From: Rhizobiaceae bacterium
Lineage (GTDB): Bacteria > Pseudomonadota > Alphaproteobacteria > Rhizobiales > Rhizobiaceae
Assembly (NCBI GenBank): GCA_017640615.1
Contig: JAEPQK010000006.1
Coordinates: forward strand, 1 to 64,000
Length of the DNA: 64,000 nucleotides
Reading direction: 5' to 3'
Shown: one piece after another, positions 7,865 to 41,573 of the stretch
Layout: each line of letters opens with the position of its first letter
How positions within the stretch are numbered: the first letter of the stretch is position 1
The notes under the pieces: generated by a model
The model's database searches: none
Told to the model about the DNA's origin: nothing
Seen by the model: only the letters and a program-made list of their open reading frames with translations
Translations under genes and position numbers: made by a program

Positions 7865-8165
7865 ACCCGACCCCCAGCAGACCCGAATAGCCAAAATTAG
7901 CACTTCGACATATTTCCAAGCAATACTCTGTTCAGCCGGTGAACCCCTCGTGCAGCACAAGTGCGGCCTGAATTCATGGCGAACGCTCGGTCATTGATTT
8001 GCAGATGCGGACTTGCGCGCACTACCGCTCTAAGGAGCTGTTGCTCTTGCGCCTGTGCCGGCTACGCCCTCGGTCGTGCTTCGAATTTCACCAACCCGCG
8101 CGAAACGAAAAACGGCCTAGAGCAGCAATCGCGCGACTTCGCGGGAGATGCGGTTTCCATCGCAG

Positions 8166-8981: not shown

Positions 8982-10062
8982 TGATGCCAACCTCATAGAG
9001 CTGCGGATGCCCGGTGCGATCCGAGGTGAAGATCACTGATCGACCGTCGGGAGCAAAGCGCGGATGCGGATGTGTGTGCTGCGGTGCGTAGACCTTTACC
9101 GGTCCGTCATTATAGGGAAAGGCTCTGCCCCAGTGGTCGCCCCGCGACGTCGCGTCCGAGCGGCAGAGGAACCTCGCTTGGTCGCTCTTGTTCATGCCTA
9201 GGTCGATCAAGTGCAGGCCGCGATCGGGGAAGTTGGTGTCACAGACGAGACAATTCCCCCAACGGTCAGGAGCGCCGTGCCATACAGGGAAACGACTTAC
9301 CCAGGTGCAATTGCCAGTCTCTACTGAGACGGCGCGCAATCCGTTCGGCCAGTCCACGAAAAGCACGCTCCTGCGCCCAGGCCACCATATTTCGTGGGTA
9401 ACCCACTGAAGGGCGTGCTCGCGCTCGTAGAGCCGCCTATGGCAGGTGCCGTCGCGGCGGATCAGCCAGACGCGATCGGTCATAGGGCCGGCATAGAGAA
9501 TGAGTTCGTCATCGTCGGGACAGAATTGCGGGTGACCGATCGTGTCGCGCTCGAGAATTATCTCGGTCGCCCCCGATTGGGTATCAATCACCAGGAATCG
9601 ATACGCTACGCCGATGTTAAGCGGGATTGCCCACCACCGACCGCTCGGTGAAAGCGCTGTAGTGCCCATCGCTGCACCCACCATTCCCGTCCCGCCCATG
9701 TCGCCACCGGAAAGTTCGGCGAGAGCTTCAGTCTTGCCGCTGCGCGGATCGACGCGCATGGCGACACCGTCAGCAACGAAATAGACGAAGCTGCCGTCGC
9801 GCGCCGGAATCACTGACCATTCCGACAACCCATCGATATCTGTCAGCTGCAGAAGATCGCCGCCGGCGCGGTGCTCCACAAATAACTGTGGCGCGCCGGT
9901 GCGGTGGGAGACGAATGCAAGGAAGTTCGCTGCTTCGTCGAATGCGTCGACAAAGAAGAAAGGATGATGATGAATGGCACTCCATGTCGTTATCTGCCGC
10001 AGCCGCCGCCCAGAGGCGGGCTCCTCGATGATCCGTCCTTCTGCCGGCCATCGCCTGAGCAT
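8968..10062 (-). CDS. Beta-propeller protein, oligogalacturonate-lyase-like
   Basis: A 364-residue protein built of WD40/TolB-type (PD40) blades. Repeating segments such as DRTGHPQLYEV, DTIGHPQFCPDDDELI and PRFAPDGRSVIFTSD are visible. The opening RRLRQITT and the HHHPFFF segment resemble oligogalacturonate lyases (Ogl, PL22), which cleave digalacturonate in the cytoplasm with histidine and metal ligands; several histidine clusters remain (IHHHP, HTHPHP). No signal peptide is visible, consistent with cytoplasmic action. Start and stop overlap both neighbours (1 base with the permease, 14 with the DUF1445 gene), so it is tightly coupled. Lyase or isomerase activity on an imported sugar acid is plausible but not demonstrated. 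Confidence 0.75.
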   Translation of the reverse strand: MLRRWPAEGRIIEEPASGRRLRQITTWSAIHHHPFFFVDAFDEAANFLAFVSHRTGAPQLFVEHRAGGDLLQLTDIDGLSEWSVIPARDGSFVYFVADGVAMRVDPRSGKTEALAELSGGDMGGTGMVGAAMGTTALSPSGRWWAIPLNIGVAYRFLVIDTQSGATEIILERDTIGHPQFCPDDDELILYAGPMTDRVWLIRRDGTCHRRLYEREHALQWVTHEIWWPGRRSVLFVDWPNGLRAVSVETGNCTWVSRFPVWHGAPDRWGNCLVCDTNFPDRGLHLIDLGMNKSDQARFLCRSDATSRGDHWGRAFPYNDGPVKVYAPQHTHPHPRFAPDGRSVIFTSDRTGHPQLYEVGINVDL

Positions 10063-11984: not shown

Positions 11985-12017
11985 GGGAGTTTACCGCCAA
12001 TGGAGCATCGGGGATAA

Positions 12018-12047
12018 GGGACGTGCGCATGTGTGCGCGCACGTCCC
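12018..12047 (-). promoter_or_regulatory. Strong hairpin between TAXI binding-protein gene and TRAP permease gene
   Basis: GGGACGTGCGC, an 8-base loop, then GCGCACGTCCC: a perfect 11-bp stem in the 73-base gap between the two genes, 10 bases after the binding-protein stop. No T-run follows on the minus strand. It occupies the same operon position as the hairpins at 2780 and 22814, so it probably gives differential expression of binding protein versus permease. Confidence 0.7.
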
Positions 12048-12057
12048 GATCTTGCGG

Positions 12058-13056
12058 TTACATCCAGCCACGCTCCTTGTAATAGCGCTCGGCGCCCGAA
12101 TGCAGCGGTATACCCAAGTTCTCGGACTTGAACGCCTGCTCCGGGTCGAAATTCGCCCAAGCAGCATGCGCCTCGCCGAGTTTTTCTGCGTTCTCGATCA
12201 GAGTCTTCGTGATCTGATAGGCAGTTTCCTCGTCGAGGTCTTTGTGGGCGATCAATACCGTGCCGAGATCGGCACCTGTGTTGGCGCCGGACTGCCCGTC
12301 GAACCAAGGCCCATACTCGCCCGGCTTGAGACCGTTCTTGGCAAGAAGGTCGAGCGTCTCCTGCGGCAGGTCGACGAAGGTGACGTCACCGGTCAGGCTG
12401 ACCTCGGTGATTGTGGGATGGCCCTTGATGATCGTGTCGATGTATAGATCCGCCTTGCCGTCGCGGATAACCTCAGGAATCTGCGGCGTCGCGACCTGGA
12501 TGATCTCGCCACCATTGGCCTTGATCGCATCAGGGCTTGTGCCAACCGATTCCATGATCATGTGCGCTGCCGGCACCGCGCTTGAACCAGTCGGCTTGTA
12601 GATGACGCGCACCGGCACGTCACCGCCGAGCAATTCCGCGAGATTGTCAGTGCCGCGACTACCGATATAGTCGTTGCGAACCATTACGCCGACATGGACC
12701 GTATTGAGGCCGCCTACGAGTGCCCGGATGTCGGGTGCGGAAGCGCCTTCATACATGTCGTGTCCGTTGTGGGCCCACACCGCAGTCGCCACATTGGAAA
12801 GCGCTATCTCCGCGTCGCCGTTCTGAACTACCATAGGGTTGGCTACGCCACCGCCGCGGGCAATGACTTCTACTCCAGCGCCCTCCAGCTCGGGCTCAAG
12901 CATCTGCTCAAGCGTGGCGGCAAAGACATACCAAGATGTGCCTTCGCGCATTGCGCCGATGCGAATGTCGTCCTGCGCTGAAGCCCCTGTTATGGCGCCC
13001 GCGAGCAGCACGCCGGCGACGATGCCGCCGGCCAGTGTTTTCGTGATTTGCTTCAT
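12058..13056 (-). CDS. TAXI family TRAP transporter solute-binding protein
   Basis: A 332-residue periplasmic protein with a Sec signal peptide (about residues 1-28, ending GASA). The mature start DDIRIGAMREGTSWYVFA and the later IARGGGVANPMVVQNGDAEIAL are the N-terminal lobe features of TAXI proteins (TRAP-associated extracytoplasmic immunogenic). VIYKPTGSSAVPAAHMIM belongs to the ligand lobe. A good GGGAGGAA ribosome site precedes the ATG. TAXI proteins bind small carboxylates such as glutamate or 2-oxoglutarate in characterised cases. The ligand here is unknown, but the neighbours (aldolase, sugar-acid-type propeller, D-glutamate-cyclase-like protein) suggest an organic acid. Confidence 0.92.
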   Translation of the reverse strand: MKQITKTLAGGIVAGVLLAGAITGASAQDDIRIGAMREGTSWYVFAATLEQMLEPELEGAGVEVIARGGGVANPMVVQNGDAEIALSNVATAVWAHNGHDMYEGASAPDIRALVGGLNTVHVGVMVRNDYIGSRGTDNLAELLGGDVPVRVIYKPTGSSAVPAAHMIMESVGTSPDAIKANGGEIIQVATPQIPEVIRDGKADLYIDTIIKGHPTITEVSLTGDVTFVDLPQETLDLLAKNGLKPGEYGPWFDGQSGANTGADLGTVLIAHKDLDEETAYQITKTLIENAEKLGEAHAAWANFDPEQAFKSENLGIPLHSGAERYYKERGWM

Positions 13057-13085
13057 GTCATTTCCTCCCTTGTTTGATTATCGTG

Positions 13086-14030
13086 CTATTCCGCAGCCTC
13101 GCGCATAACCAAGCCGGCGTTGGCGACAGCTGCTTCAATCCGGGCCAACTCTTGGCCCTCGGGTTTCGAGGTTGGTGCGCGCACATTGTCATTGGGAAAG
13201 CGGCCAGCCAGCCGCATCGCCGTCTTCATGCGCGCATGGGCGTCGCCAGTCGGCTCGCCGAGCCCGTAGACAGCCTCCTTAAGCGGGTTGATGCGCTCCT
13301 GAATGACAGCCGCTCTTGTAAGGTCGTTCGCTTTCACCGCCGCGAAGAGCTCTGTGATCATCTCCGGGATGAACGAAGCGAAGCCGACCAGTGCGCCGTC
13401 GACGCCTTGGACCATTGTGGGCAGCAGATATTCGTCATGGCAGGTCAGGATGGATTTTTCAGGTGCGGTTTCGCGAATCGCCTTCACGTCTCGGGCGTAT
13501 TTGCTCATGTCGCGCGTGCCTATCTTGAAGGCCTTCACGAACGGCATTTTCGCGAGCGCCACGAGCGTCTCGGTGGCGTAGGAGGCGCGCGTCCAGGAGG
13601 GGTAGATGTGGACGATCAGATCGAGCTTGCTCTTCGCGCCAATCGCCTCAAAATACCGCAGCACATATTCTTGCCTCATACCGAACCGCAACCACATGTG
13701 CGGCGGCATAACTAGTGCGCCGGAAGCTCCCGCCTCCTCGAAGGCGTGGGCATGTTCAACGGCTTCGTTGATGCCTTCGCAGCAAATACCAGAGACTGTC
13801 GGCACGCGGCCACGCGCCTGATCGGCAACTACGCGGGTAACTTCGGCCCGCTCATTTTTGTCGAGTGCGAAGACCTCGCCGGTGTGACCGTTGGTTACGA
13901 GGCCGGTGATACCTTTGTGGGTCAAGAGCCAGTCGACAAACTGCCGCAACGCGGACTCATCGATCGATTCATCCTCGTGAAACGGCACCTGAAGAGCCGG
14001 TAAGATGCCTTTGTAATCCCATTCGTTCAT
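13086..14030 (-). CDS. Dihydrodipicolinate synthase/N-acetylneuraminate lyase family aldolase
   Basis: A 314-residue class I aldolase of the DapA/NanA superfamily. The barrel opens with LPALQVPFHED; the carboxylate-binding loop reads TNGHTGE in place of the usual GTTGE; the proton-relay tyrosine is in HIYPSW (about Y143) and the Schiff-base lysine is in AFKIGTRD (about K169). The altered loop and residues argue against true lysine biosynthesis DapA, so it is more likely a catabolic 2-keto-3-deoxy acid or related pyruvate lyase/dehydratase. It lies directly after the IclR gene and before the TAXI-TRAP genes on the same strand, so it probably acts on the transported compound. Confidence 0.85.
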   Translation of the reverse strand: MNEWDYKGILPALQVPFHEDESIDESALRQFVDWLLTHKGITGLVTNGHTGEVFALDKNERAEVTRVVADQARGRVPTVSGICCEGINEAVEHAHAFEEAGASGALVMPPHMWLRFGMRQEYVLRYFEAIGAKSKLDLIVHIYPSWTRASYATETLVALAKMPFVKAFKIGTRDMSKYARDVKAIRETAPEKSILTCHDEYLLPTMVQGVDGALVGFASFIPEMITELFAAVKANDLTRAAVIQERINPLKEAVYGLGEPTGDAHARMKTAMRLAGRFPNDNVRAPTSKPEGQELARIEAAVANAGLVMREAAE

Positions 14031-14057
14031 TGTTTTCTCCTTTCGATCGTTTGTGCC

Positions 14058-14870
14058 TCAGCCGTAGCCGCTCAAAACTGTCCCATTGGCCGCCAAAGCA
14101 GCTGCGATATCGCCGGCGGCCGCACGGATCGGCTCAAGCGCTGTCGCCACCATTTCTTCCGCGCCAATTCTCACCTTGGGTGCCGCAATACTGACAGCGG
14201 CGGTCCCGATGCCGTCACCGTCGAGCACCGGCACGGCCAGGATAAGGAGCCCCTCTGCTATGAAAGACTCCGAAAAGGCGTAGCCACGCTCGCGCACCTC
14301 GCTCAAATGCGCCAAGACACGCTCTCGGCCCATAGGCATGATTGGCAAGTGTTCGCTGGTCGGCGTGGCATCCAGCGTCGCAGCAACGAGGTCTTCTGGC
14401 AGGAAGGCGAGCAGGCTGTGGCCGATCGTGCTGCAGTAGGCGGGAATGGTCGTGCCGATCCTGATGTCGACCCCGAGCCGCGTGTGTCCCGCCCGCACCC
14501 GCTCCACATAGATTATGTCGCCGTCTTTCAGGATGCCGAGACTCGCAGCCTCGCCAGTTTGCTGAACGAGCCGGCGCAGAACCGGGCGCGCTATATCGCG
14601 CAGATCCATTCTCGCGATGGCATTGAAGCCAAGATCGGTGACTTTGAGCGTTAGCCGGAAGAGCTTTGTGCCCGGCTTCTTTTCAACATAGCCAGCCGCG
14701 GCAAGGGTATTGAGCATTCGAAATGCCGTCCCGGCGTCGAGGTCTGCTGTCGCAGCTACCTGCGAAATAGAAAGCTCCGGCGCTTCAGCACTGAACGCCT
14801 CCAATACTCGAAGCCCCTTCGCGAGGGACGCGACCATATTCCGGGAGTCATGGGCGGCTTCAGGCATCAT
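14058..14870 (-). CDS. IclR-family transcriptional regulator (aldolase/TAXI-TRAP operon)
   Basis: A 270-residue IclR-type regulator. The winged helix (about residues 13-75) includes LSISQVAATADLDAGTAFRM. The C-terminal effector domain carries segments such as YCSTIGHSLLAFLP and RERGYAFSESFIAEGL, matching the family's effector-binding pocket. It is the first gene of the minus-strand operon that runs down to 8166, 28 bases ahead of the aldolase gene, and probably controls it and itself. A perfect 8-bp inverted repeat 10 bases upstream of the start codon is a likely operator. Confidence 0.92.
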   Translation of the reverse strand: MMPEAAHDSRNMVASLAKGLRVLEAFSAEAPELSISQVAATADLDAGTAFRMLNTLAAAGYVEKKPGTKLFRLTLKVTDLGFNAIARMDLRDIARPVLRRLVQQTGEAASLGILKDGDIIYVERVRAGHTRLGVDIRIGTTIPAYCSTIGHSLLAFLPEDLVAATLDATPTSEHLPIMPMGRERVLAHLSEVRERGYAFSESFIAEGLLILAVPVLDGDGIGTAAVSIAAPKVRIGAEEMVATALEPIRAAAGDIAAALAANGTVLSGYG

Positions 14871-14879
14871 TCTCGTTTT

Positions 14880-14911
14880 TTCGGATTGCGAAACTTTTAC
14901 TGTAATCCGAA
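14880..14911. promoter_or_regulatory. Perfect inverted repeat, candidate IclR operator
   Basis: TTCGGATT, 16 bases, then AATCCGAA. It lies 10 bases upstream of the IclR start codon, in the promoter region of the minus-strand operon. The AT-rich spacer could include the -10 region. Position and symmetry fit autoregulation; there is no direct proof. Confidence 0.5.
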
Positions 14912-15133
14912 TTTAGCCCAGGTGCCGCATAGGTGCAAGTCGTTGGACGGCCATTCGCCTACTAATGGTCGCTCAAGACGCTCCAAGCGGTGCTGGGGGC
15001 ACCTGTTTCAGGCAATTGGAATTCACTAATAGGTATAGGAAACCGGTCAAACAGCGGGAATCCTGTCGGTTACCGTCAGTCCCGATTGCCGATCGCTATA
15101 ACTCAATCAACGAGTTATCGGAGATCGACTGCA

Positions 15134-15541
15134 TTGACCGGCACATCCAAGGCACCACACGCCAATACCAAACTCGCCATCTTCCTGCGCCGCCGCATCC
15201 TTGAGTTGCGGCCGCGCAAGAGCCAAGTCGACATCGCGTCCGAGGTCGGCTGGAAGAGCCGCAACATGATGGCAATGATCGCAGGCGGCACATCCAAGCT
15301 ACCGATCGACCGGGTTCCAGCGCTGGCGAAGGCGCTCGACGTTGATGCGGCGCTTCTGCTCAAGCTTACCCTCGAACAGCACGACACCATGCTGTGGTCG
15401 ATCATCGAGGATGCATGTGGGATGGCACTGACCGAGAACGAACGGAAGATCGTCTCGTTGATCAGGACATCATCGGCTGACAGTGATCCTGCTCCGGTTG
15501 GCAAGCTGCTCAGAGCTTTGCGGGAGGCATTCGGCGAATGA
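15134..15541 (+). CDS. XRE-like helix-turn-helix protein
   Basis: About 135 residues. The segment KSQVDIASEVGWKSRNMMAM, followed by LPIDRVPALAKALDVDAALL, is a Cro/C1-type helix-turn-helix domain (about residues 28-80). The C-terminal 50 residues are helical and unassigned. No ATG is available in frame after the region starts to look protein-like; I propose the TTG at 15134, which has GGAG 10 bases upstream, whereas the track ORF starts at 14990 with unlike-protein sequence. Its stop overlaps the next gene's ATG (ATGA). In this context it may be the regulator or antitoxin of the two small genes that follow. Confidence 0.65.
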   Translation: MTGTSKAPHANTKLAIFLRRRILELRPRKSQVDIASEVGWKSRNMMAMIAGGTSKLPIDRVPALAKALDVDAALLLKLTLEQHDTMLWSIIEDACGMALTENERKIVSLIRTSSADSDPAPVGKLLRALREAFGE

Positions 15542-15804
15542 GCAAAGCATATAGTCCGACTTCCCGCAGGCGCCGCGTGAGGCGGACGTCAGAGCGCATC
15601 ACTGACAGAGAGGACGCCTGGCTGACATTTTTGCGTTGCATCTGGCCCGACGGACTGCCGCCTCCCACGCTGGCCTTGGTGCAGGCCGTGCGGCTGGCGA
15701 TGTCCTCCCCGAAGCAGGTGAGCTCATGGGCTGCCGATCATGCCTCCAGCAAGCACGATGCATGTCCCAGTGAAGCGAAGGGCAGCGTCCGTGAGCGGCG
15801 ATGA
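15538..15804 (+). CDS. Small hypothetical protein, coupled to the HTH gene
   Basis: An 88-residue basic protein I do not recognise. The first part is arginine-rich (SRRRRVRRTSERITDRED) and the middle holds a short hydrophobic segment around TFLRCIWPDGLPPPT. Support comes mainly from the 4-base ATGA overlap with the upstream HTH gene and from the absence of a better frame here. Its end overlaps the next ORF, so one of the two starts may be wrong. Confidence 0.45.
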   Translation: MSKAYSPTSRRRRVRRTSERITDREDAWLTFLRCIWPDGLPPPTLALVQAVRLAMSSPKQVSSWAADHASSKHDACPSEAKGSVRERR

Positions 15805-16153
15805 CTTCGATCCGCGTTGGTTGGACGCGGCGATACCCGCAAAGCACTGGCACTTCCACCGACGCCTTTACGCACATTACGGGATCGTGCTCGCTCCGGG
15901 CGACTTCGGGTCGATGCTGCGGGATATCAAACGGGGAAGGGCGCAATGGCTCCGGGATATGGGCGGCGGCAAAGAACTCTTCGCTATCCGCATCCGCAGC
16001 GACTTCGAGCGGATCTACCTTATCGTGAAACAGCGTCATTATGTGATTACCGTCCTGCCGCCGACCTCCGACCTCCGCAAGCTCCGTCTGCTGCGCGATC
16101 TTGAAGGGGGAGGGGCGAAGGTCCGGGTCGTGCCGAAGCGCACGGAGGATTGA
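15740..16153 (+). CDS. Hypothetical protein, possibly toxin-like
   Basis: Up to 137 residues. The conserved-looking core is HWHFHRRLYAHYGIVLAPG, then a helix, then the strand pair AIRIRSDFERIYLIVKQRHY. Short beta-strands with basic residues after a helix recall RelE/ParE-type or BrnT-type toxins, but no family is certain. The start is unclear: ATG 15740, ATG 15758 or GTG 15791 are possible, and the last has AGGG upstream and a smaller overlap with the previous ORF. With the HTH gene it could form a toxin-antitoxin-like module; this is a hypothesis from size and order only. Confidence 0.55.
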   Translation: MPPASTMHVPVKRRAASVSGDDFDPRWLDAAIPAKHWHFHRRLYAHYGIVLAPGDFGSMLRDIKRGRAQWLRDMGGGKELFAIRIRSDFERIYLIVKQRHYVITVLPPTSDLRKLRLLRDLEGGGAKVRVVPKRTED

Positions 16154-16511
16154 GCGCGAGTAGCGCGCTGGTGCATCGGAGGTGCTGAGCTAGTTGTTCA
16201 CTTTCCCTAAACGGCCTCGCGCGCCTCGCAAGCCGATCTTCGTCGTGCGTGGAGAAGATCGATGTTGCTCGCAGATGCACTGCGTATTGTGCTCGCGAAA
16301 GATGGTTTGCGGAACCACTCATGAGCCGCAGCGGGGAACCAAGACGTTTCGTGCCTGAGGAAGCCACCGCCCCATGGACGCGAAGTCCTAGAACGGAAAA
16401 CCGCATAGCATCCGGATGCCTCGGGTCGCCGAGACTGCCAATTCCGGAGGCACCCATGTTCAAGCTGGATTGGTCGAGCAAGGCTACGACGCCGAATCAT
16501 GGCGCCGCAAC

Positions 16512-30012: not shown

Positions 30013-30177
30013 TGAAATAGCCGACTGTGCAGCCGATGTTCGATCATTACTCGACATACGACTATTCGGCACGCATGCCTCGATGCTTGTCATTTTTTTG
30101 CGCATCATCGTGAATCTGTCGCTATATAGCTGACCGTTCGCCTGACGCTCGTCGGGCCTCTCGCGTTCGGAGCCTTT

Positions 30178-30663
30178 ATGACAATCCACACTTCAATTGA
30201 TCCCTGCATTAGAGCAGAGATGGGCAAGTGGCTGAAGATGGACTTCGAGTTTAGCCACTTTGTGACTCTCGCGACAAACGATGCTGGGCTGTCCCCGGCA
30301 ACGATGCGCAGGCGGCTGAAGAGCTGGGACGCGCGCGTGAACCGGGCGCTATATGGGCCGAAGTGGCAAAAGCATCAGGACGAGCTCATCTGGTTCTTCG
30401 CCTTCCTTGAGAAACCGTCGGCCAATCCACATTGGCACCTGATGTTGCGGATCGTAGGACGCTGGAACGAAGATCCGGTCTCGACCTACAGCGAGTTCCA
30501 TCGGGCGGCATTCATCGGATGGAAGCAGCTGATGCCATCGGGGACTATCGACGTGCAGGCAATTCGTGCGGGTTACTCTTCGGTTGAAGAATATGTTTTA
30601 AAAGAGCTGCGAGGTGCGATACAATATTCAAGTTTCGTTACGCCGGATGAACTCCGGCACTGA
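30178..30663 (+). CDS. Small protein with HUH/Rep-like endonuclease motifs
   Basis: A 161-residue protein with the three motifs expected of a single-tyrosine HUH (rolling-circle Rep/relaxase-type) nuclease, in order. Motif 1-like FVTLAT is at about residues 28-33, motif 2 NPHWHLML (H-hydrophobic-H, about residues 83-90) and motif 3-like VEEYVLKEL (YxxK, about residues 137-145). HUH proteins cut one DNA strand and stay covalently linked through tyrosine. There is no helicase or primase extension. A GGAG ribosome site precedes the ATG. Family membership is motif-based and unconfirmed; it could start replication or transfer of the element, or act in a defence role next to the restriction genes. 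Confidence 0.65.
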   Translation: MTIHTSIDPCIRAEMGKWLKMDFEFSHFVTLATNDAGLSPATMRRRLKSWDARVNRALYGPKWQKHQDELIWFFAFLEKPSANPHWHLMLRIVGRWNEDPVSTYSEFHRAAFIGWKQLMPSGTIDVQAIRAGYSSVEEYVLKELRGAIQYSSFVTPDELRH

Positions 30664-30873: not shown

Positions 30874-33800
30874 TTGGTTCCTTCCGCCAGAGTCGAATGC
30901 CGTCGGGGAGGGTGGCCAGAGAAGAGCTTCTTCGACAAGCCGATCATCAATTCGCCCTATGCGCCTCCAGATAGGCATTGGGAACTCGATCTCGAAGGAC
31001 ATCCGACGGACGTAATCGTCGAGCAGCGTCGAGGATCGGCATTGTGGACGGCCCTTCCGGGAGCGGCTTCGACGACGAAGGCCTCGGCGCAGTCGAGCAT
31101 GGTATTCAATACCGAGCTGTCTACCGACGCGACGGAATTCAACCCCTCGCCAATGATCAACGATCTCCGGCAGGAGTTGGAAACCTGGCGTAGTCTCCCC
31201 AATCCCGCTCAGTGGAAGGTGACGCCCGTTACCCAGCGGCTGCTCCAGCACTGGCGCGCGGTCCAGAACGATCCCAGCCAGACCATCCGGCCGTTCTTTT
31301 GCCAGCTCGAAGCGGTCGAGGCGGCGATCTGGCTGGCTGAGGTTGCGCCCGAAATGGGACGGCGCGGCCGGCGGTTCCTGAACTGGCTTCCGATCGCAAA
31401 CAATTTCGCGCTCCAGGCAGAAGGCACGTCACCATCCGACGCAACGCCCGAACTGATGCGCATTGCATTCAAGCTCGCGACGGGCGCCGGCAAGACGACG
31501 GTGATGGCGATGCTCATTGCCTGGCAGGCGCTCAATGCCGTGCGCTCCCCCAACAGCAAGCGTTTCTCGAAGGGGTTCCTGATCGTAACGCCCGGCATCA
31601 CCATTCGCGACCGGCTGCGGGTTCTGATGCCCAACGACGAGAACAGCTACTACGACCGGCTCAGTCTCGTGCCGCACGATCTGCTGCCTGACCTACAGCG
31701 CGCCGACATCGTGATCACCAACTATCACGCGTTCAAGCTCCGGGAGACCTTCGACGCCGCGACCGGCACTCGGCAAGTGCTCGAAGGTCACGGCGAGGCT
31801 CTGCAGACGCTGGAAACCGAAGGCCAGATGGTCCAGCGGGTCATGGGCGATCTTATGGGCAACAAGAACGTCGTCGTTATCAATGACGAAGCACATCACT
31901 GTTATCGTGAGCGCCCGACCTCGGAGACTGTCAAGCTCACCGGCGAGGAGCGTAAGGAGGCGGAGCATAACAAGGAGGCTGCGCGCCTCTGGATATCAGG
32001 GCTTGAAATACTCAACCGCCAGCTGGGTGTCCGCGTCGTCTACGATCTGTCGGCCACGCCGTTCTTCCTGTCTGGCTCGAACTGGCCTGAGGGCATTCTA
32101 TTTCCCTGGGTCGTGACTGATTTCTCGCTGATGGACGCAATCGAGTGCGGGATCGTCAAGCTGCCCCGCGTGCCAATCGCCGACAATCGCGCCGACGGCC
32201 AGCAGGTCATGTATCGCAATCTGTGGCCGGCCATTCGCCAACGCATGCCAGACAAGCGCAAGAAGAGCGAAGGCAAGCCGGATCCGCACAAACTGCCGAT
32301 CGAGCTCAAGGTAGCGCTCGACGCGCTCTATGGCCATTACGAGAAGACATTTCGGCTGTGGGAAAAAGAGCAGGTCGGTATCCCGCCGGTCTTCATCGTG
32401 GTGTGCAACAACACCACGAACTCCGAGATGGTGCGCGACTATATCGCCGGCTACGCCTGGGCCGACGAGCACGATCAGGAGCGCGTCCGCAACGGCGAAC
32501 TCGAACTCTTCCGCAACTATGACGATCACGATCAGCGGCTCGACAGGCCGCGCACGATCCTCATCGACTCCGCGGCGCTAGAAGCGGGCGGCGATATCGA
32601 TAAGGCGTTTCGCGACGCGCACGAAAAGGAGATCGAGGCCTTCAAGCGCGAACGTAACCGGCGCGATCCGACGGCCGGAGAGATCAGCGACGCCGAGATA
32701 CTGCGGGAGGTGATGAACACCGTCGGGCGCAAGGGTAGACTCGGCGAGCAGGTGCGGTGCGTTGTCTCCGTGTCGATGCTCACCGAAGGGTGGGATGCCA
32801 ACAACGTCACTCACATCATGGGTTTGCGAGCGTTCGGCTCGCGGCTGATCTGCGAGCAGGTAATCGGCCGGGCGCTGCGGCGCCTGTCCTACGAGGCCGA
32901 TCCGGACACGGGGTTCTATCGCACCGAATATGCCGACATCATGGGCATCGACGGGCTCAACTTCGCCGATCAGGCGCGGCCGGCGCCGCCGCAGCCGCCG
33001 CGGGAGATCATCCATGTCGAGGCGGTCAGTCCGGAGCGCGACCACCTCGAGATCGTCTTCCCGCGCGTCGAAGGCTTTCGCACGGACTTCCCGAAGGAGC
33101 GGATCGACGTCGACCTGTCACGCCTGGAGCCATATGTGCTCACGCCCGACAAGGTCGGCGCGACCATAGTGCAGATGTCGGGCATCATCGGCGAACGCCA
33201 CCAGCTCGGTCTTCAGCATCTCGACGACAGGCGCCTGTCGACGATTGCCTTTGACATCGCCTCCTACTGGGTCTCAGAGAAGCTGCGCGATCCGAATGGC
33301 GCGCCAAAGACACATCTCTTCCCGCACGCAAAGCGCATCGTGCTGCAGTGGCTGAATTCCGACCGGCTGGTCTGCAAGGGCGACACGCGGCCGGCGCAGC
33401 TGCGCTACCGCCAACTCGCCGACGAGGTCTGTGATCTGCTGATGGGCGCGTTGCTGGATCAGCCAGGCGGGCAGCCGATCATCCGGGCCGTGCTCGACCC
33501 GTTCGCGGCCGCGGGATCGACGGCCGGCGTAAACTTCAACACGTCGAGCACGAGCCGGCACTGGCCCAATCCCGAGCGCAGCCACGTCAACTGGATCATC
33601 ACCGACCAGGACTGGGAGAACAAGCTGGCGGAGATCCTCGACGACCACCCGGCCGTCGAGGCTTACGCCAAGAACCACAATCTGCATTTCGAGGTGCCCT
33701 ATACGAAGGAAGGCGAACCGCACGGATACCGGCCTGATTTTCTCGTCCGGCTGAAGACGCCCGACGGCGCGGAGCCGCTGACCCTGGTGCTCGAGGTCAA

Positions 33801-33984
33801 GGGTTTTCGCGGCCATGACGCCATGCTCAAGGCCGAGGCGATGCGCAACAAGTGGATTCCAGCAGTCAACAGGCTCGGCGCATACGGTCGCTGGGCATTT
33901 GCCGAGCTGCGCAGCGTCTACGATTTCCGGCCGGAGCTGGACGCGGCGATTGCGGATTTGACCAATCCGAAGGTGCCGGCATGA
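30874..33984 (+). CDS. Type III-like restriction subunit: superfamily 2 helicase with C-terminal nuclease
   Basis: A 1036-residue protein. The opening KSFFDKPIINSPY...RHWELDLEG is typical of a family of type III-like Res proteins. Helicase motifs: Walker A LATGAGKTTV (about residue 200), Walker B NDEAHHCY (about 337), SATPFF (about 392), TEGWDANNVTH and QVIGRALRR (about 637-670). The C-terminal RPDFLVR...LVLEVKG (about 953-975) is a PD-(D/E)xK nuclease core. The start is the TTG at 30874; a stop lies in frame at 30844 and no ATG is available, so a few N-terminal residues may be lost. It starts a five-gene coupled operon. In type III systems Res cuts only with the Mod methyltransferase, here encoded two genes downstream but frameshifted. 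Confidence 0.9.
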   Translation: MVPSARVECRRGGWPEKSFFDKPIINSPYAPPDRHWELDLEGHPTDVIVEQRRGSALWTALPGAASTTKASAQSSMVFNTELSTDATEFNPSPMINDLRQELETWRSLPNPAQWKVTPVTQRLLQHWRAVQNDPSQTIRPFFCQLEAVEAAIWLAEVAPEMGRRGRRFLNWLPIANNFALQAEGTSPSDATPELMRIAFKLATGAGKTTVMAMLIAWQALNAVRSPNSKRFSKGFLIVTPGITIRDRLRVLMPNDENSYYDRLSLVPHDLLPDLQRADIVITNYHAFKLRETFDAATGTRQVLEGHGEALQTLETEGQMVQRVMGDLMGNKNVVVINDEAHHCYRERPTSETVKLTGEERKEAEHNKEAARLWISGLEILNRQLGVRVVYDLSATPFFLSGSNWPEGILFPWVVTDFSLMDAIECGIVKLPRVPIADNRADGQQVMYRNLWPAIRQRMPDKRKKSEGKPDPHKLPIELKVALDALYGHYEKTFRLWEKEQVGIPPVFIVVCNNTTNSEMVRDYIAGYAWADEHDQERVRNGELELFRNYDDHDQRLDRPRTILIDSAALEAGGDIDKAFRDAHEKEIEAFKRERNRRDPTAGEISDAEILREVMNTVGRKGRLGEQVRCVVSVSMLTEGWDANNVTHIMGLRAFGSRLICEQVIGRALRRLSYEADPDTGFYRTEYADIMGIDGLNFADQARPAPPQPPREIIHVEAVSPERDHLEIVFPRVEGFRTDFPKERIDVDLSRLEPYVLTPDKVGATIVQMSGIIGERHQLGLQHLDDRRLSTIAFDIASYWVSEKLRDPNGAPKTHLFPHAKRIVLQWLNSDRLVCKGDTRPAQLRYRQLADEVCDLLMGALLDQPGGQPIIRAVLDPFAAAGSTAGVNFNTSSTSRHWPNPERSHVNWIITDQDWENKLAEILDDHPAVEAYAKNHNLHFEVPYTKEGEPHGYRPDFLVRLKTPDGAEPLTLVLEVKGFRGHDAMLKAEAMRNKWIPAVNRLGAYGRWAFAELRSVYDFRPELDAAIADLTNPKVPA

Positions 33985-34901
33985 ACGACGTCGTCTTCGG
34001 CCGTTTGACGGATCTGCTGCCGCGCGAGGCCTGGAGACACGAGGCGCGGGCGTTCACGCCGTGGCTCGCCGAGAACATCGGCCAGCTGTCGGAAGTCATC
34101 GGCATCCCGCTGGAGTTGACCGGCACCGAGATCGCCGTCGAGACCTTCGCGGCAGACATTCTCGCGCGCAATCCAAGCGATGGCACGGTAGTGCTTATCG
34201 AGAACCAGCTCGAGATCACCGACCACACTCATCTCGGCCAGATCATGACCTATCTGGCAGGGTTGGACGCGCAGACGGTCATCTGGATCGCGCCGAAATT
34301 TCGCGAGCCGCATCTTTCTGCCATCCGCTGGCTGAACGAGCACACAGCCGACGGGTTCTCGTTCTTCGCCGTCAGGCTGCGCGTGGTGCGTATCGGCGAC
34401 AGCCCTTATGCGTCGATCTTCGAGGTGATGGAAAAGCCGAGCGGCTGGGAGCGCAGCCTCAAGGAGGCGGTGCGTCCGGCGTCATCCGATCCAGGATCGG
34501 CGAAGCGCGCCGCATTCTGGGATCACTATGCCGAGCGCTACCCGGCGATGACGGACCTTCGGCCGAAGACCGGGTGGAATTACTACATGCCGCTGGCCGG
34601 CGGTCAGGTGCTGCTCTCGGGCTACATCGCGACGCGCACCTGCGGGGTCTATCTGCGCGCGCCCTGGTCAGGCGACACCGCGACCGTCGGCGAATTGCTC
34701 CTTCCATATCGCAACGAACTGGAGCGGGAACTGGGCGCGGAATTCGATGGCGCCAAGGATCACTTCTTCACCAAGCGCCGAGAGCCCGGATTTGGCGACG
34801 AGGCCGACTGGCCGGCGCTGATTGAATGGTTCGAGGAACAGCGCCGCATCTACTCGGCGGCGATCGAAAACAGGCTGGCAGGGCATCCAGATGGCGAATG
34901 A
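33981..34901 (+). CDS. DUF4268-type protein with nuclease-like N-terminus
   Basis: A 306-residue protein overlapping the restriction gene by 4 bases (ATGA). The N-terminal half shows a PD-(D/E)xK-like pattern: FAADILARN, then TVVLIENQLEITDHTHLGQ (E-x-Q in place of E-x-K), then IWIAPKF. The C-terminal half (KRAAFWDHYAERYP, GWNYYMPLAG) resembles DUF4268. Such proteins are common next to restriction-modification and other defence genes. The function is unknown; an accessory nuclease or specificity factor is plausible. I start at ATG 33981; the track start at 33852 lies inside the restriction gene. It ends 11 bases inside the methyltransferase gene. Confidence 0.8.
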   Translation: MNDVVFGRLTDLLPREAWRHEARAFTPWLAENIGQLSEVIGIPLELTGTEIAVETFAADILARNPSDGTVVLIENQLEITDHTHLGQIMTYLAGLDAQTVIWIAPKFREPHLSAIRWLNEHTADGFSFFAVRLRVVRIGDSPYASIFEVMEKPSGWERSLKEAVRPASSDPGSAKRAAFWDHYAERYPAMTDLRPKTGWNYYMPLAGGQVLLSGYIATRTCGVYLRAPWSGDTATVGELLLPYRNELERELGAEFDGAKDHFFTKRREPGFGDEADWPALIEWFEEQRRIYSAAIENRLAGHPDGE

Positions 34902-36186
34902 CAAGAAAACTCCCGTCGACATCATCACGCATGACGAGACGCGCGCCAACATCCCGCCGGCGGAGCTGGAGCCGGTGCTGGAGGAGAGCGACAAGAAACC
35001 GATCCGCACTGCCTGGGAGCGGCGCAACCGCGATCTCGATCCGCAGCTGGTCTGGCGTGGCAAGGATCCCGATCAGGCCGAGCTGACGGTAGACGCACCG
35101 CCGATCTACCGCCAGGAGCACGTGCATCCAAAGGCACTGGTCGACGATCTCAGGAACGGCCGCGAGAAGGCGGAAGACCTGTTCGGCCATTTCGGGCTGA
35201 CGGAGGAGGACCGCGAGGCGGAGGTCGAGTTCTACCGGCACAGCGCCCGCTGGTCGAACCGCATGATCCTGGGCGACGCGCTTCAGGTCATGTCGTCGCT
35301 GGCCGAGCGCGAGAGGCTGAAGGGCCAAGTGCAGGCGATCTACATCGATCCGCCCTACGGCATCAAGTTCCAGTCGAACTTCCAATGGTCCACCACATCG
35401 CGCGACGTGAAGGACGGCAAGCTCGACAATCTGACGCGCGAACCCGAACAGGTGAAGGCCTTTCGCGACACCTGGCGCGACGGCATCCACTCATACCTGT
35501 CCTATCTGCGCGACCGGCTGACCGTGGCGCGCGAACTGCTGACGGAGAGCGGCAGTTGTTTCGTCCAGATCGGCGACGAGAATGTCCACCGGGTGCGGGC
35601 GCTGATGGATGAGGTGTTTGGTGAGAAGTGCTTCATAGCTGCAATAAACTACGTAACGACAAGCGGCAGGCAAGATAGATACATCGACAATATTTCAAAT
35701 CACATCCTTTGGTATTGCCGGGATTTCGGCAAGGCGAAGTATCGGCAGCTTTACCTCGGCAAAGAGGATGGCGACGGCGGCTTTGTTGCCGACCAATTCC
35801 AGTCAGACGGCGTCCGAACCGATGGAGATTACCCAGTTCGGGTTCATGGTCGCGAATTTCGACCAAAAGTGGGGAACCATTGGAAGACACATCCGGAAGG
35901 TGCCAACCGGCTGAAGCGTGCTGATCGACTAGTTCCGCAAAGGGCGATGGTTCGCTACAAAAGGTTCAGCGATGATTTTGCCGGGCGCGCACTTCCAAGC
36001 GTGTGGCTCGACACTTCTGGCGGTGCTGGCAGAGACAAGGTCTACGTGGTCCAAAGCAACGCGCGCCTCGCGGAGCGGTGCATCCTGATGGCCACCGATC
36101 CAGGCGACCTTGTGCTCGACCCGACCTGCGGCTCGGGCACTACGGCCATGTCGCCGAACAGTGGGGCCGACGCTGGATCACCATAG
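34891..36186 (+). pseudogene. Beta-class DNA methyltransferase (type III Mod-like), N-terminal part before a frameshift
   Basis: This frame encodes the first 431 residues of an adenine/cytosine-N4 methyltransferase. The catalytic DPPYG (in IYIDPPYGIKF, about residue 152) comes before the SAM-binding DPTCGSGTT (about residue 409), the beta-class order typical of type III Mod proteins, with the target-recognition region between. Right after GSGTTA the frame becomes nonsense and stops at 36186, while the expected continuation (VAEQWGRRWITIDTSR) is found in another frame from 36150. One missing base between 36147 and 36148 (a T, giving GCC TAT GTC) would restore one gene of about 926 codons, 34891-37670. 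No repeat tract is present, so phase variation is unlikely. Either a real inactivating deletion or a sequence error. Confidence 0.82.
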
Positions 36187-37670
36187 ACACGTCGCGCGTT
36201 GCACTGGCGCTTGCCCGCGCGCGCATCATGGGCGCCAAATATCCCTGGTATCTGCTGGCCGACAGCCCTGAGGGACAGAAGAAGCAGGCCGAGGTGACTC
36301 GTTCGTCACCATCTACCCAATCCACCTATGGCGACATCCGCCATGGCTTCGTCTACGAGCGAATACCAAGGGTTTCTCTTGGAAAGATTGGCGCGAACAC
36401 CGAGATCGACGTGATCTGGGAGCGCATGCAGCCGGCGGTGGAGAATGCGCGGGCCGCACTCAACGCCGCGCTCGCCGGCCACGCCACGCCATTCAAGGTC
36501 GAGACCGGCGGCCGCGCCGGCAAGACCATCGACTTCAGGGCGTCTGGCGAGGTCGAACTGCCTTCCGGCGAATATGCGCCGGCAAACGGCTTCATGGAAT
36601 GGGAAACTCCGCACGAGGCGCCCGACGGTTGGCCGGACGCCGCGGTGAAAGCGCTTGAGGCTTTCTGGGCTGCGCGTATCTGCCGCCAGAAGGAGATCGA
36701 CGCCTCGATCGCCGCCAAGGCCGAGCATGAATATCTCTATGACAAGCCCTATGAGGACAGGAAGCGCATCCGCGTTGCCGGTCCCTTCACGGTCGAGAGT
36801 CTGTCGCCGCACCGCATGTCGGCGGTGGACGAGCATGGCGAACTGATCGACGAGATCAACGCCGCCGAGGGCCTGCAGCTGTCGGGCGAGCAGGAGTCGG
36901 AGAATTACCGAAAGGCCATCATGGAAAACCTCGCCAAGGCCGGCGTGCACCAGTCGGGCAAGGCGGACGCCATCCGCTTCGACACGCTGACGCCCTGGCC
37001 CGGCGAGTGGATCGGCGCCGAGGGCCGCTACCGGGAAGGTGAGGGTGACGACGCCGTGGAGCGGCGCGCCGGCATCTTCATCGGCCCGGAATACGGCACC
37101 GTCTCCAGAGCCGATCTCGTCGCCTGCGCGCGCGAGGCGGCGGACGCCGGCTTCGACATCGTGATCGCCTGCGCCTTCAACTTCGAGGCGCATGCGCAGG
37201 AGTTCCACAAGCTCGGCCGCGTGCCGATCCTGCATGCGCGCATGAACGCCGACCTGCACATGGCCGGCGAGCTGAAGGCCGGCGGCGGCAACCTCTTCGT
37301 CGTCTTCGGCGAGCCGGACTTCGAGCTGAAGGAAGAGGGCGAGCGCTACCGCGTCGAGCTCAGGGGCGTCGACATCTTCAAGCCGGCGACAGGCGAGGTG
37401 GTGAGCTCCGAGCCCGACGACATCGCCTGCTGGTTCATCGACACCGACTATTCTGGCGAGAGCTTCTTCGTGCGCCAGGCCTACTTCCCCGGCGCGGAGG
37501 TGCCCTACAAGGCGCTGCGCTCGACACTGAAAGCCGAGATCGACGAGGAGGCCTGGGTCAGCCTCAAGCGCACCGTCTCACGGCCGTTCGCCAAGCCGAA
37601 GAGCGGGCGGATAGCGGTGAAAGTGATCAACCATCTGGGGGACGAAGTGATGAAGGTGTTGGGGGTGTGA
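36150..37670 (+). pseudogene. DNA methyltransferase C-terminal part after the frameshift
   Basis: This is the continuation of the methyltransferase in the shifted frame. It begins with the end of the SAM-binding motif (VAEQWGRRWITIDTSRVALA) and continues with about 490 residues typical of large type III-like Mod proteins, including VDEHGELIDEINAAEGLQL and DIACWFIDTDYSGESFFVRQ. The track ORF starts at a GTG at 36003, but the residues before 36150 are out of frame with the family and have no support. Alone it lacks the catalytic DPPY motif and cannot methylate. It is followed after 1 base by the DUF4357 gene. Confidence 0.82.
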
Positions 37671-37671
37671 G

Positions 37672-38016
37672 GTGGACATCTTCAGGTATGAGGTCGGAAA
37701 GGCTGCAGCCGAAGGATTCCCGGTCGGTGGGAACAGAATCGTAGAATTTGTTGTTCTCGCTGGATCGACCGCGCTGAATCGATCGAAGGGCGCCGATCGC
37801 AAAGGGAAATTGCCGCTGAGGAGAGATCGACTTCTCAACGATGGGATATTGGCTCCCCACGCGCGGGATACTGACCTGTATGTGTTTGTGCGAGATCACC
37901 GTTTCACAAGTCCGACCGCTGCCGGAGATATTGTCAACGGGGCCAGTCTGAGTGGACGAGCCCCGTGGCTACATAAGGTGACGGGCCAGTCTCTCAAGGA
38001 CTGGCTTGTGCCATGA
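37672..38016 (+). CDS. DUF4357 domain protein
   Basis: A 114-residue protein starting at GTG 37672, one base after the methyltransferase stop. The last 50 residues follow the DUF4357 pattern: HRFTSPTAAGDIVNGASLSG then PWLHKVTGQSLKDWL. This small domain often sits at the end of GIY-YIG nucleases or as a separate gene in restriction-modification loci. The function is unknown; a DNA-binding or substrate-recognition role is usually assumed. It overlaps the helicase gene by 4 bases, so it belongs to the same operon. Confidence 0.75.
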   Translation: MDIFRYEVGKAAAEGFPVGGNRIVEFVVLAGSTALNRSKGADRKGKLPLRRDRLLNDGILAPHARDTDLYVFVRDHRFTSPTAAGDIVNGASLSGRAPWLHKVTGQSLKDWLVP

Positions 38017-40028
38017 CCGTCCTCATTGCCACCAGCTTCACTAAATCACTTGCCAAGCTCACCGGTCAGGAGCAATCGGCGGCCAAGGTCACAGCGTTCG
38101 ACATCCAGCAGAATCCCGATAGCCCGGGCCTGTCGCTGCACCGGATCGACAGGTGCCGGGATCCCGATTTCTGGACTGCGCGCGTTAACAGGGACATTCG
38201 CATAGTTCTGCACAAGCGCGGCGGCAGCACAGCACTGGTCTATGTCGGGCATCACGACGATGCCTACGACTGGGCGGCGCGACATCGTCTCGATCAGCAT
38301 CCGACGACGGGCGCGGCACAGATCGTCGAGATACGCGAGACAGTCGAGGAGATCGTCGTTCGCCGCTATGTCGAGGAGGCGGTGAAGAAGCCGCCGATTT
38401 TCGCAAGCGAGACCGCGGAGACACTGCTCAGCTGGGGTGTGCCCGAAGACTGGCTCGACACGGTGCGTCAGGCGACCGAGGACACCGTGCTCGACATTGC
38501 CGGCCACCTGCCTGATGAAGCCCAGGAAGCATTGCTGGCGGCCGCGGTGGGCGAGACGCCGACCATCCGGCTCCAGACAGTGGAGGAGGGTGGCTACAGC
38601 CATCCAGATGCGCTTCGTCGTTTCATGATCATAGGCGACGAAGCCGAGCTCGCAGCCGCTCTCGATGCCCCTTGGGACGACTGGGCGATCTTTCTCCATC
38701 CGGCGCAGCGCGAATTCGTCGATCGGGACTTCAATGGCCCAGCTCGCGTCATCGGGTCGGCGGGAACGGGAAAGACGGTCGTTGCTCTGCACCGCGCCGT
38801 GCGGCTGGCAGGCGATGATCCCGATCATCGCGTGCTGTTGACCACCTTCTCGGGGGAGCTCGCCGAAGGCCTCGCCAACAAGCTCGCGCGGCTCACGGGC
38901 GCGCGGCCGGACATTGCCGCCCGCATCACCGTCGGCACATTGGCCGAGATTGCGCAACGGCTGGCAAAAGAGCAGCCAGGGCACGCGAATATTGCTTCGG
39001 ATGCGGAGGTAGTCTCGCTCCTGAACGATGCCGTCATCGCGGAAGGAACAGCCGTCGCTCCAGGGTTCATCCTCGAGGAATGGCGCCTCATCGTGGATGC
39101 CTGGGACGTGCGCGACGCGGAAACCTACCTCGATCTCCCACGGCTTGGACGGAAGGTGCGCATGGCTGCTTCGCGCCGGGACGAGGTCTGGCGTGTTTTC
39201 GCGCGCGTGCGCGCCGTTCTCGACGCGCAGGGTAAGGAAACCGAGGCGGGTCTCATGCATCGGCTGGCGCGCGAGATTTCCAATACGCCCTTCACGCATG
39301 TCGTGGTTGACGAAGCACAAGACATCTCCGTGCCGGAACTTCACTTCGTCGCGGCTCTCGCCGGCGGCCGGCCGAACGGTCTCTTCTTCGCCGGAGACAT
39401 CGGACAGAGAATTTTCCGTTCGCCATTTCCTTGGAGGGCCGCAGGTGTCGATATTCAAGGTCGATCGCGCAGCCTCAAAGTGAATTATAGGACCTCGCAT
39501 CAGATCAGATCGAAGTCGGACATACTGCTTCCGCCGCGCCTGCTCGAGGCAGACGGTGGCGAAGACAACAGGTGGGGCGTGTCGTCGGTGTTTCACGGTC
39601 CCCTGCCAGAGCTTCGCTTGTTTGAAGGACCGGAGGACGAAATCGCTTCTGTCAGCGCCTGGATCGATGACTGCCTGAGCAGTGCGATTGCACCGGAAAC
39701 GATCGCCGTGCTAGTTCGATCTGAAGCTGAAATGCCGCGTGCGCGAAAAGCTATCGCCGCGTCAAAGAACGACCGTGTGGTCGCCGCTCTCATGCACGAT
39801 GCCAAGGGACGGGAATTCCGCGCGGTCGCCGTGATAGCGTGTGATACCGACGTCCTTCCCAGCGAGAAGCGTTTATTGGAAGCGTCCGATGAGCGGGCGC
39901 TCAAGGAAATCTACGACACCGAGCGCCACTTGCTCTATGTGGCGGCCACTCGCGCCAGGGAACGACTCTGGATATCGGCAAGCGGAACACCTTCGGAGTT
40001 TCTGGCCGATTTGGGACTCGGGGAATAA
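38013..40028 (+). CDS. RelE-like domain fused to UvrD-family helicase
   Basis: A 671-residue protein with two parts. Residues 1-90 read like a RelE/ParE-superfamily toxin fold: FTKSLAKLTG, LSLHRIDRCRDPDFWTARVN, DIRIVLHKR and YVGHHDDAYDWAARH. From about residue 225 it is a superfamily 1 helicase: Walker A GSAGTGKTVVALHRA (about 248), DEAQD in HVVVDEAQDIS (about 432), NYRTSHQIR (about 492), AKGREFRAV and LYVAATRARE (about 643). Helicase motifs look intact, so it is probably active on DNA; whether the RelE-like part cuts RNA or only docks is unknown. It is the last gene of the defence operon and overlaps the DUF4357 gene. The minus-strand ORF 38046-39596 is a shadow. Confidence 0.88.
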   Translation: MTVLIATSFTKSLAKLTGQEQSAAKVTAFDIQQNPDSPGLSLHRIDRCRDPDFWTARVNRDIRIVLHKRGGSTALVYVGHHDDAYDWAARHRLDQHPTTGAAQIVEIRETVEEIVVRRYVEEAVKKPPIFASETAETLLSWGVPEDWLDTVRQATEDTVLDIAGHLPDEAQEALLAAAVGETPTIRLQTVEEGGYSHPDALRRFMIIGDEAELAAALDAPWDDWAIFLHPAQREFVDRDFNGPARVIGSAGTGKTVVALHRAVRLAGDDPDHRVLLTTFSGELAEGLANKLARLTGARPDIAARITVGTLAEIAQRLAKEQPGHANIASDAEVVSLLNDAVIAEGTAVAPGFILEEWRLIVDAWDVRDAETYLDLPRLGRKVRMAASRRDEVWRVFARVRAVLDAQGKETEAGLMHRLAREISNTPFTHVVVDEAQDISVPELHFVAALAGGRPNGLFFAGDIGQRIFRSPFPWRAAGVDIQGRSRSLKVNYRTSHQIRSKSDILLPPRLLEADGGEDNRWGVSSVFHGPLPELRLFEGPEDEIASVSAWIDDCLSSAIAPETIAVLVRSEAEMPRARKAIAASKNDRVVAALMHDAKGREFRAVAVIACDTDVLPSEKRLLEASDERALKEIYDTERHLLYVAATRARERLWISASGTPSEFLADLGLGE

Positions 40029-40083: not shown

Positions 40084-40350
40084 ATGTCATATTCGACCAT
40101 TCAGCTCATTCACGCACTGCCGCCTTCCGAGCGTCGCTGTTTCGACAGAAAGGAAGCGGCCAGCTACGTCGGTGTCAGCCCGAACACACTGGACCGTTTG
40201 GTTCGTCAGGGGTTATTGCCGTCGCCCATCAAATGGTGCGGTCGCAAGGTCTGGGATCGCAATGCGCTCGACCTAGCCATCGCTTCCGCGGCGAATACGC
40301 CGACAAAAGGCACTTCCAACGAAATTGATCGCATTCTTGGCGTGTCATGA
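40084..40350 (+). CDS. AlpA/excisionase-like HTH protein
   Basis: An 88-residue DNA-binding protein of the MerR/AlpA (HTH_17) group: FDRKEAASYVGVSPNTLDRL is the helix-turn-helix, followed by PIKWCGRKVWDRNALDLAIA. Such proteins act as recombination directionality factors or regulators of island excision. A strong GAAAGGAA ribosome site precedes ATG 40084; the track start at 39841 lies in the helicase gene. The stop overlaps the integrase start by 4 bases, which directly ties it to integration and excision control. Confidence 0.85.
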   Translation: MSYSTIQLIHALPPSERRCFDRKEAASYVGVSPNTLDRLVRQGLLPSPIKWCGRKVWDRNALDLAIASAANTPTKGTSNEIDRILGVS

Positions 40351-41432
40351 AGGTCAAGCTTCCGACTTACACGCAAGAAGTCTGCAAGCGCGGCCGCATC
40401 TACTACTATTACCGGCGCGGCAAGTTCCGGATGAGACTTCCGGGGCGACCGTTCTCGACAGAGTTCATGGACGCTCATTCCGCGGCCGAAGTCGCTTTCA
40501 GGGCGCAAGGTGGCCTTGAAACTGACATCGGTGCCAATCGTCTGAAGCCGGGTTCATTCAACGCGCTGGTGATGTCCTACTATCGATCGGCAGAGTTCCT
40601 CAATCTGAAGCCGATATCACAGCGAACGAACCGCAATGTGATCGAGAAGATTCGGCTTCTGCTTGGTGATGCGCAGGTGTCTAGTTTTCTGCCGCGGCAT
40701 CTTGAGAGGATGATGGCCGAGAAGGCCGACACACCTGATGCCGCCAACCGAATCCGCCGGATGATGAAAATCCTGATGAGGCATGCAATCAGGCTTGGAT
40801 ATCGAAACGATGACCCGACTGCCCGCGTCCCGAAGCTGAAGAATCGTTCGGACGGCTACAAGACCTGGAGCGAAGACGAGATCGAACAGTTCTATGCAGC
40901 GCACGGGGAGGGGACTCGGGCGCGATTGGCATTCGACCTGATGCTCTATACCGGCCAACGCCGTTCCGATGTAATCCGGATGGGGCACCAGCATATCCGC
41001 AATGGCACACTCGCGATCCGGCAGTCCAAGACCGGCACTGTGGTGGAGATCCCGATTCACCCCCGATTGAAGACGGTGCTCGATAGCTTGTCGCGGGACA
41101 ACCTGACGTTTCTCGTGACCGATCAAGGCAAGCCTTTCTCGCCTGCGGGTTTTGGAAACTGGATCGGAGACTGTGTGCGCAAGGCCGGACTGAGGCAGGG
41201 CCTGGCAAAGGGCGAAAAGGGGCTATCGTCCCATGGGTTGCGCAAGGCCATCTGTAGGCGCTTGGCGGATGCCGGTTGCGATGCGTTGCAGATCATGGCG
41301 ATTACCGGTCATCGCGACATCAAGCAGATCATGGTTTACATCGAAGCGCGCGATCGTAGCAGAGCTGCCGAAGCGGCGATCAGGGCGATTGGAGAGCGTC
41401 CCGGCGGGACAAACAGAGATCAAACAGTGTAA
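40347..41432 (+). CDS. int: Tyrosine recombinase/integrase
   Basis: A 361-residue phage-type integrase. The catalytic residues are visible: Arg I in YTGQRRSDVIRMG, the beta-hairpin lysine in RQSKTGTVVEIPI, HxxR in SSHGLRKAI, and the nucleophile Tyr in GHRDIKQIMVYIEARDR. The N-terminal part (about residues 1-150) has the arm- and core-binding domains. It ends 65 bases from the 3' end of the tRNA-Glu gene, the normal place for an island integrase whose attB is the tRNA 3' end. It is coupled to the AlpA-like gene. The coding frame looks intact, so the element may still be mobile. Confidence 0.93.
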   Translation: MKVKLPTYTQEVCKRGRIYYYYRRGKFRMRLPGRPFSTEFMDAHSAAEVAFRAQGGLETDIGANRLKPGSFNALVMSYYRSAEFLNLKPISQRTNRNVIEKIRLLLGDAQVSSFLPRHLERMMAEKADTPDAANRIRRMMKILMRHAIRLGYRNDDPTARVPKLKNRSDGYKTWSEDEIEQFYAAHGEGTRARLAFDLMLYTGQRRSDVIRMGHQHIRNGTLAIRQSKTGTVVEIPIHPRLKTVLDSLSRDNLTFLVTDQGKPFSPAGFGNWIGDCVRKAGLRQGLAKGEKGLSSHGLRKAICRRLADAGCDALQIMAITGHRDIKQIMVYIEARDRSRAAEAAIRAIGERPGGTNRDQTV

Positions 41433-41497: not shown

Positions 41498-41573
41498 TGG
41501 CACGCCCAACGGGACTCGAACCCGTGTTTCCGCCGTGAAAGGGCGGCGTCCTAGACCGCTAGACGATGGGCGC
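41498..41573 (-). tRNA. tRNA-Glu (anticodon TTC)
   Basis: The minus strand reads GCGCCCATCGTCTAGCGGTC... and ends ...GGGTTCGAGTCCCGTTGGGCGTGCCA. The acceptor arm pairs GCGCCCA with TGGGCGT, the anticodon stem CCGCC/GGCGG encloses the loop CTTTCAC with anticodon TTC (glutamate), the T-loop is TTCGAGT, and CCA is encoded. Its 3' end faces the integrase gene 65 bases away, so the island left of it is probably inserted at this tRNA 3' end. Confidence 0.95.

Follow-up and report, generated by a model that had tools for sequence, protein, structure and literature searches.

CRESS-DNA Reps and the Reps of pCRESS plasmids carry the HUH motifs, with an HxH placed before one YxxK tyrosine. Both also carry an SF3 helicase (PMC6668415). 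The Rep of SIRV1 (ORF119, 2x3g) is a minimal HUH initiator which, like the protein described here, consists of one small domain without a helicase, and the phage-associated Pfam family REP_ORF2-G2P (PF23343) has its motifs in the same order as that protein and its relatives. Rolling-circle-type nickases are found on integrative elements as well: Rep_trans relaxases are of this type on integrative mobilizable elements (PMC7563843), and for Rep-Arvir of archaeal viruses excision builds the replication operon (PMC13107129, where Rep_trans is set apart from the HUH superfamily). P0001, a small protein from a Rhizobiaceae bacterium, is proposed below to work along comparable lines, as a nickase of rolling-circle type borne by an integrative element; no sequence match of Rep_trans or Rep-Arvir to P0001 was found.

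P0001 as a divergent HUH protein

The window (the whole stretch of 64,000 nucleotides analysed here) encodes P0001, an HUH-type single-domain protein of 161 residues, at 30178-30663 (+), an annotation drawn from the list of open reading frames, the family alignment, a structural model and matches to viral structures. Its ATG lies 5 nt downstream of a ribosome-binding-like GGAG (30169-30172, +). The sequence-only reading had recognised motif 1, H-x-H and YxxK in HUH order, and these are indeed present, all on the plus strand: FVTLATN (residues 28-34; 30259-30279), NPHWH (residues 83-87, with N83, H85 and H87; 30424-30438) and YVLK (residues 139-142; 30592-30603), with an acidic residue, E78 (30409-30411), N-terminal of the HxH. 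The key columns are near-invariant among 18 diverse alphaproteobacterial members, which were aligned and compared with four more distant outgroups. H85, Y139 and K142 occur in all 18 sequences, H87, E78 and G60 in 17 and T30 in 16; conservation across the 18 is almost confined to this catalytic set, and the tyrosine, the lysine and the first histidine are retained in each of the four outgroups.

Whole-genome searches at the level of class, order, family and phylum found relatives of P0001 in about 2% of genomes. They are single-domain proteins of 155-216 aa, approximately 17-35% identical to P0001, and include members in Brevundimonas, Devosia, an uncultured Rhizobium and an unclassified alphaproteobacterium, as well as one on plasmid pAB510d of Azospirillum sp. 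B510 (L028:7959-8432); a further candidate (L006) was rejected as a chance match within an unrelated gene. P0001 is present once in its own genome, and its relatives are single copy in all hit genomes but one. In the Azospirillum member HFG replaces HxH, so that the second histidine, and with it probably one metal ligand, is gone, the sole such case in the 18-member alignment; at least one family copy is thus probably inactive as a nickase. Between the copies of two Brevundimonas species dN is 0.17 and dS 0.78, and this branch of the family is therefore under purifying selection.

The nearest curated family to P0001 is PF23343, its only Pfam match, yet one that falls below the curated cut-off (E 0.0041; 17.8 against 27.8 bits). 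Searching with profiles for Rep families was more productive with the relatives, nine of 12 members matching PF23343 at E <= 1 (best E 8.7e-6). Conversely, PF23343 retrieved alphaproteobacterial proteins, two of which score above its cut-off, and most of the proteins so retrieved are matched by the P0001-family profile too, as is the case for the above-cut-off protein L080. For P0001 itself NCBIfam and PADLOC gave no match, PHROGs and PDB sequences nothing significant, and a single-sequence search no relatives in plasmids, phages, viral contigs or GTDB contigs; the family likewise had no match in the phage and IMG/VR collections, and no description of it was found among the titles and passages covered by a literature search. 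Thus, single-sequence database searches overlook this family, although an alignment makes its catalytic signature plain, and the earlier idea of an unnoticed HUH family came close, tempered by the sub-threshold link to PF23343. Against the PDB, the top match of the family profile was SIRV1 ORF119, a weak one (E 0.92) whose alignment spans E, HxH and Y..K and which, coming from an archaeal virus, is a lead rather than a proven relationship.

A six-sequence AlphaFold model of P0001 (pLDDT 76, pTM 0.78) puts motif 1 in the first strand, HxH in a central strand and Y139 in a C-terminal helix, in the strand and helix order of HUH proteins; a model built from P0001 alone (pLDDT 47) was poor, and was set aside together with the fold search based on it. 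Structural comparison with HUH folds, which the sequence-only reading had proposed, spoke for the assignment in a viral structure library and was uninformative in the PDB. In the former, the named leading matches included Replication-associated protein ORF2/G2P, Replication gene A protein, a Vibrio cholerae phage replication protein and microvirus initiators, with inovirus Reps also present, at modest E values (2.6e-5 to about 1e-2) in a set where most matches are unnamed and some named ones unrelated; in the latter, no HUH protein appeared among the top 50. Catalytic residues conserved in homologues and a modelled fold resembling phage Reps support the HUH assignment of P0001. The label of a CRESS-type Rep, on the other hand, was too specific: the best named structural matches are phage Reps of the ORF2/G2P type, and P0001 and its relatives lack the SF3 helicase of CRESS and pCRESS Reps, hence P0001 is not a CRESS Rep. 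Nor is it a conjugative relaxase of the MOB families, whose tyrosine is N-terminal to HxH, whereas it is C-terminal in all members. Overall, the P0001 family is a thinly spread, uncatalogued and divergent HUH subfamily related to PF23343.

The island, the family loci and two circular plasmids

P0001 directly precedes a defence-type operon (30874-40028, +) in which profiles identify a type III-like res helicase/nuclease, PDC-S11, a frameshifted MTase_III, a DUF4357 protein and a UvrD-like helicase. This operon, noticed from the sequence, is real, but the type III methyltransferase gene (34822-37670) is interrupted by a frameshift near 36140, with two ORFs matching complementary parts of PADLOC PDLC03632. 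An assembly error could explain this, as could a broken gene or a phase-variable site. Downstream lie a small HTH_17/excisionase-like protein (40126-40350, +) and, directly after it, a tyrosine recombinase of 361 aa (PF00589; 40347-41432, +), both from profile matches, the latter ending about 65 bp from a tRNA-Glu(ttc) (41498-41573, -), which a tRNA call and genome comparison mark as the presumed insertion target of the island. In one genome of the same genus (G1018) the sequence corresponding to window 15093-16459 lies near the same tRNA-Glu, and in another (G1021) window 14952 is joined to an integrase remnant beside it. These junctions indicate that about 25 kb was gained or lost at tRNA-Glu, the DNA missing in a same-genus genome running approximately from 16500 to 41470. 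An integrase-bounded island, as first proposed, is real, yet its left border is not sharp and no att repeat of the tRNA-Glu 3' end was found within the window. Because the 25 kb also holds a sugar-transport and metabolic cluster, the HUH-bearing element may cover just a part of this stretch, in a possibly composite island. The remnant in G1021 (L036) comprises about 49 C-terminal integrase residues by tRNA-Glu, joined to a homologue of window 8148-14952, which suggests that the island was lost at this site. Elsewhere in the window, a THF-II riboswitch (folE RNA; 53222-53260, -) is found upstream of a GTP cyclohydrolase gene.

Other family loci do not share the defence operon in its entirety. 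What recurs is a tyrosine or serine recombinase, in 14 of the 18 family loci (the window included, at 10 kb from P0001) and in none of 20 control stretches taken from those genomes, a contrast that is suggestive rather than exact, as the HUH loci themselves supplied the seeds of the recombinase profiles, so that the control figure understates unrelated recombinases, and the stretches differed in length (16 kb for controls, up to 20 kb for HUH loci and 40 kb for the window). DUF6641-like genes occur in 6/18 family loci and 0/20 controls, with a seventh genome (G603) carrying DUF6641 some 16 kb from the HUH gene, and DUF6626-like genes recur too; none of the papers covered by the literature search names either. 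A conserved protein of about 440 aa, with no Pfam match, also recurs near the HUH gene (L041:4458-5702, L049:12678-13997, L053:8328-9710), and can be read from its motifs, which recall those of tRNA-guanine/DNA transglycosylases (DpdA-like), as putatively transglycosylase-like. The Azospirillum copy adjoins a tRNA-Phe, an integrase and a DUF6641-like gene; no att repeat of the tRNA-Phe was found at this locus. Thus, the P0001 family usually sits on mobile DNA beside site-specific recombinases.

Two further relatives are encoded on contigs of one genome, L050 (5087 bp) and L051 (6356 bp), each with exact 99-bp terminal overlaps, which identify them as circles of 4,988 and 6,257 bp. Both carry a serine resolvase, 89% identical between them, and each has a theta-type initiator, Rep_3 on one and RPA on the other. 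Iteron-like repeats of 22 bp are found in L050 at 4918-4985. With their own Rep_3 or RPA, these two plasmids are unlikely to have the HUH protein as main initiator, and the idea of the HUH protein as main initiator of the plasmid replicon is weakened accordingly; accessory nicking is more likely for the family than essential plasmid replication.

Hairpins near the gene

A hairpin upstream of P0001, suggested earlier as a place of nicking, was not recovered: the window copy has no significant hairpin upstream or downstream, and no nick site was identified there. Several relatives have their strongest local hairpin about 45-180 nt 3' of the gene, and z scores of -2.5 or lower (mononucleotide shuffles, 15 each) were obtained for six of the 17 downstream flanks and for no upstream flank. 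The two Brevundimonas species share such a hairpin about 75 nt past the HUH stop codon (L052:10540-10580 and L053:10540-10580), with two compensatory changes and no T-tract. Here the HUH gene is kept together with roughly 200 bp of flank per side, as a block of about 870 bp in otherwise unalignable DNA, and the recombinase and DUF6641 genes are conserved as blocks separate from it. The Brevundimonas hairpin is our best candidate nick site, though it may instead have a terminator-like or regulatory role.

A probable nickase of mobile elements

P0001 is probably a single-domain, single-tyrosine HUH endonuclease on mobile DNA, and we predict that it nicks its element to allow rolling-circle copying or mobilisation. 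What the data provide are the catalytic residues, a modelled fold like that of Reps, and a family that associates with recombinases and circular plasmids. In this model, P0001 would bind a short origin on its own element, H85 and H87 would hold a divalent metal, and Y139 would cut one strand and stay joined to the 5' end, while a host or element helicase would unwind the DNA, the UvrD-like helicase encoded on the island being a candidate only. A recombinase, presumably the integrase at tRNA-Glu (40347-41432) in the window, would excise the element first, and the cut would then start rolling-circle-type copying or mobilisation; across the family the protein may serve accessory nicking, either in mobilisation or in amplification of the excised form. 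We infer that P0001 could start replication or transfer of its island, and keep the proposal at this strength because the search for an origin, a hairpin or an att pair came up empty and the two plasmid relatives coexist with theta-type initiators. More speculatively, and with distinctly lower confidence, the family might form a distinct minimal class (about 160 aa) of HUH nickases that mobilise or amplify small theta plasmids and recombinase islands of Alphaproteobacteria at a hairpin immediately 3' of their own gene, and that current relaxase and Rep typing misses.

A different view, rather unlikely though it has real arguments, is that the protein serves as main rolling-circle initiator to an element of plasmid or phage-like type that has integrated, and that the chromosomal copies are remnants. 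The relationship to PF23343, the structural matches to microvirus and inovirus Reps and the mobile context of the family are all in its favour, but both circular plasmids already have Rep_3 or RPA, no genes for ssDNA-phage capsids or assembly could be recognised in those large neighbours that were tested, the phage and IMG/VR collections gave no match, and the one pair tested shows measurable purifying selection. Unlike the phage setting of PF23343, the relatives of P0001 sit with recombinases and theta plasmids and beside no recognised ssDNA-phage genes. Recruitment of an HUH-derived protein to another task, such as that of a DNA-binding regulator or of a defence or counter-defence nuclease tied to the adjacent operon, appears improbable. 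It would fit the position of P0001 directly before that operon, the metal histidine missing in Azospirillum and the plasmid relatives found alongside theta initiators; yet the operon as a complete unit is not shared by other family loci, the catalytic residues are otherwise retained and PADLOC does not match P0001.

Y1 transposases have HxH before a single tyrosine. P0001 shows this order as well, and the conserved Brevundimonas block of some 870 bp with its downstream hairpin could be read as a single-gene cassette moved by a very small IS200/IS605-like Y1 transposase. We regard this as very improbable: YxxK is a Rep-type motif, none of the 12 members tested has a Pfam transposase match, the recombinase and DUF6641 neighbours are conserved as separate blocks, and copies are single in the P0001 genome and in all other hit genomes but one; an active element of this type was rejected on the transposase profiles and the single copy of P0001. 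Finally, a chance resemblance, with motif-like strings in what is no HUH protein or no gene, could draw on the sub-threshold Pfam match, the missing NCBIfam match and the poor model of the single-sequence searches but is hardly credible, being already contradicted by near-invariant catalytic columns in 18 members, retained in four outgroups, and by the selection on the family and its profile and structure matches to Reps.

The context of the family, recombinase islands and theta plasmids, suggests a role other than the replication of ssDNA phages. If the favoured reading of P0001 as an element-borne nickase is correct, a set of chromosomal islands and plasmids that seem non-mobilisable would carry their own tiny nickase, a missing route of mobilisation or copying in Alphaproteobacteria would be filled, and the family would offer a compact, helicase-free HUH domain for mechanistic work or as a DNA-tagging tool.
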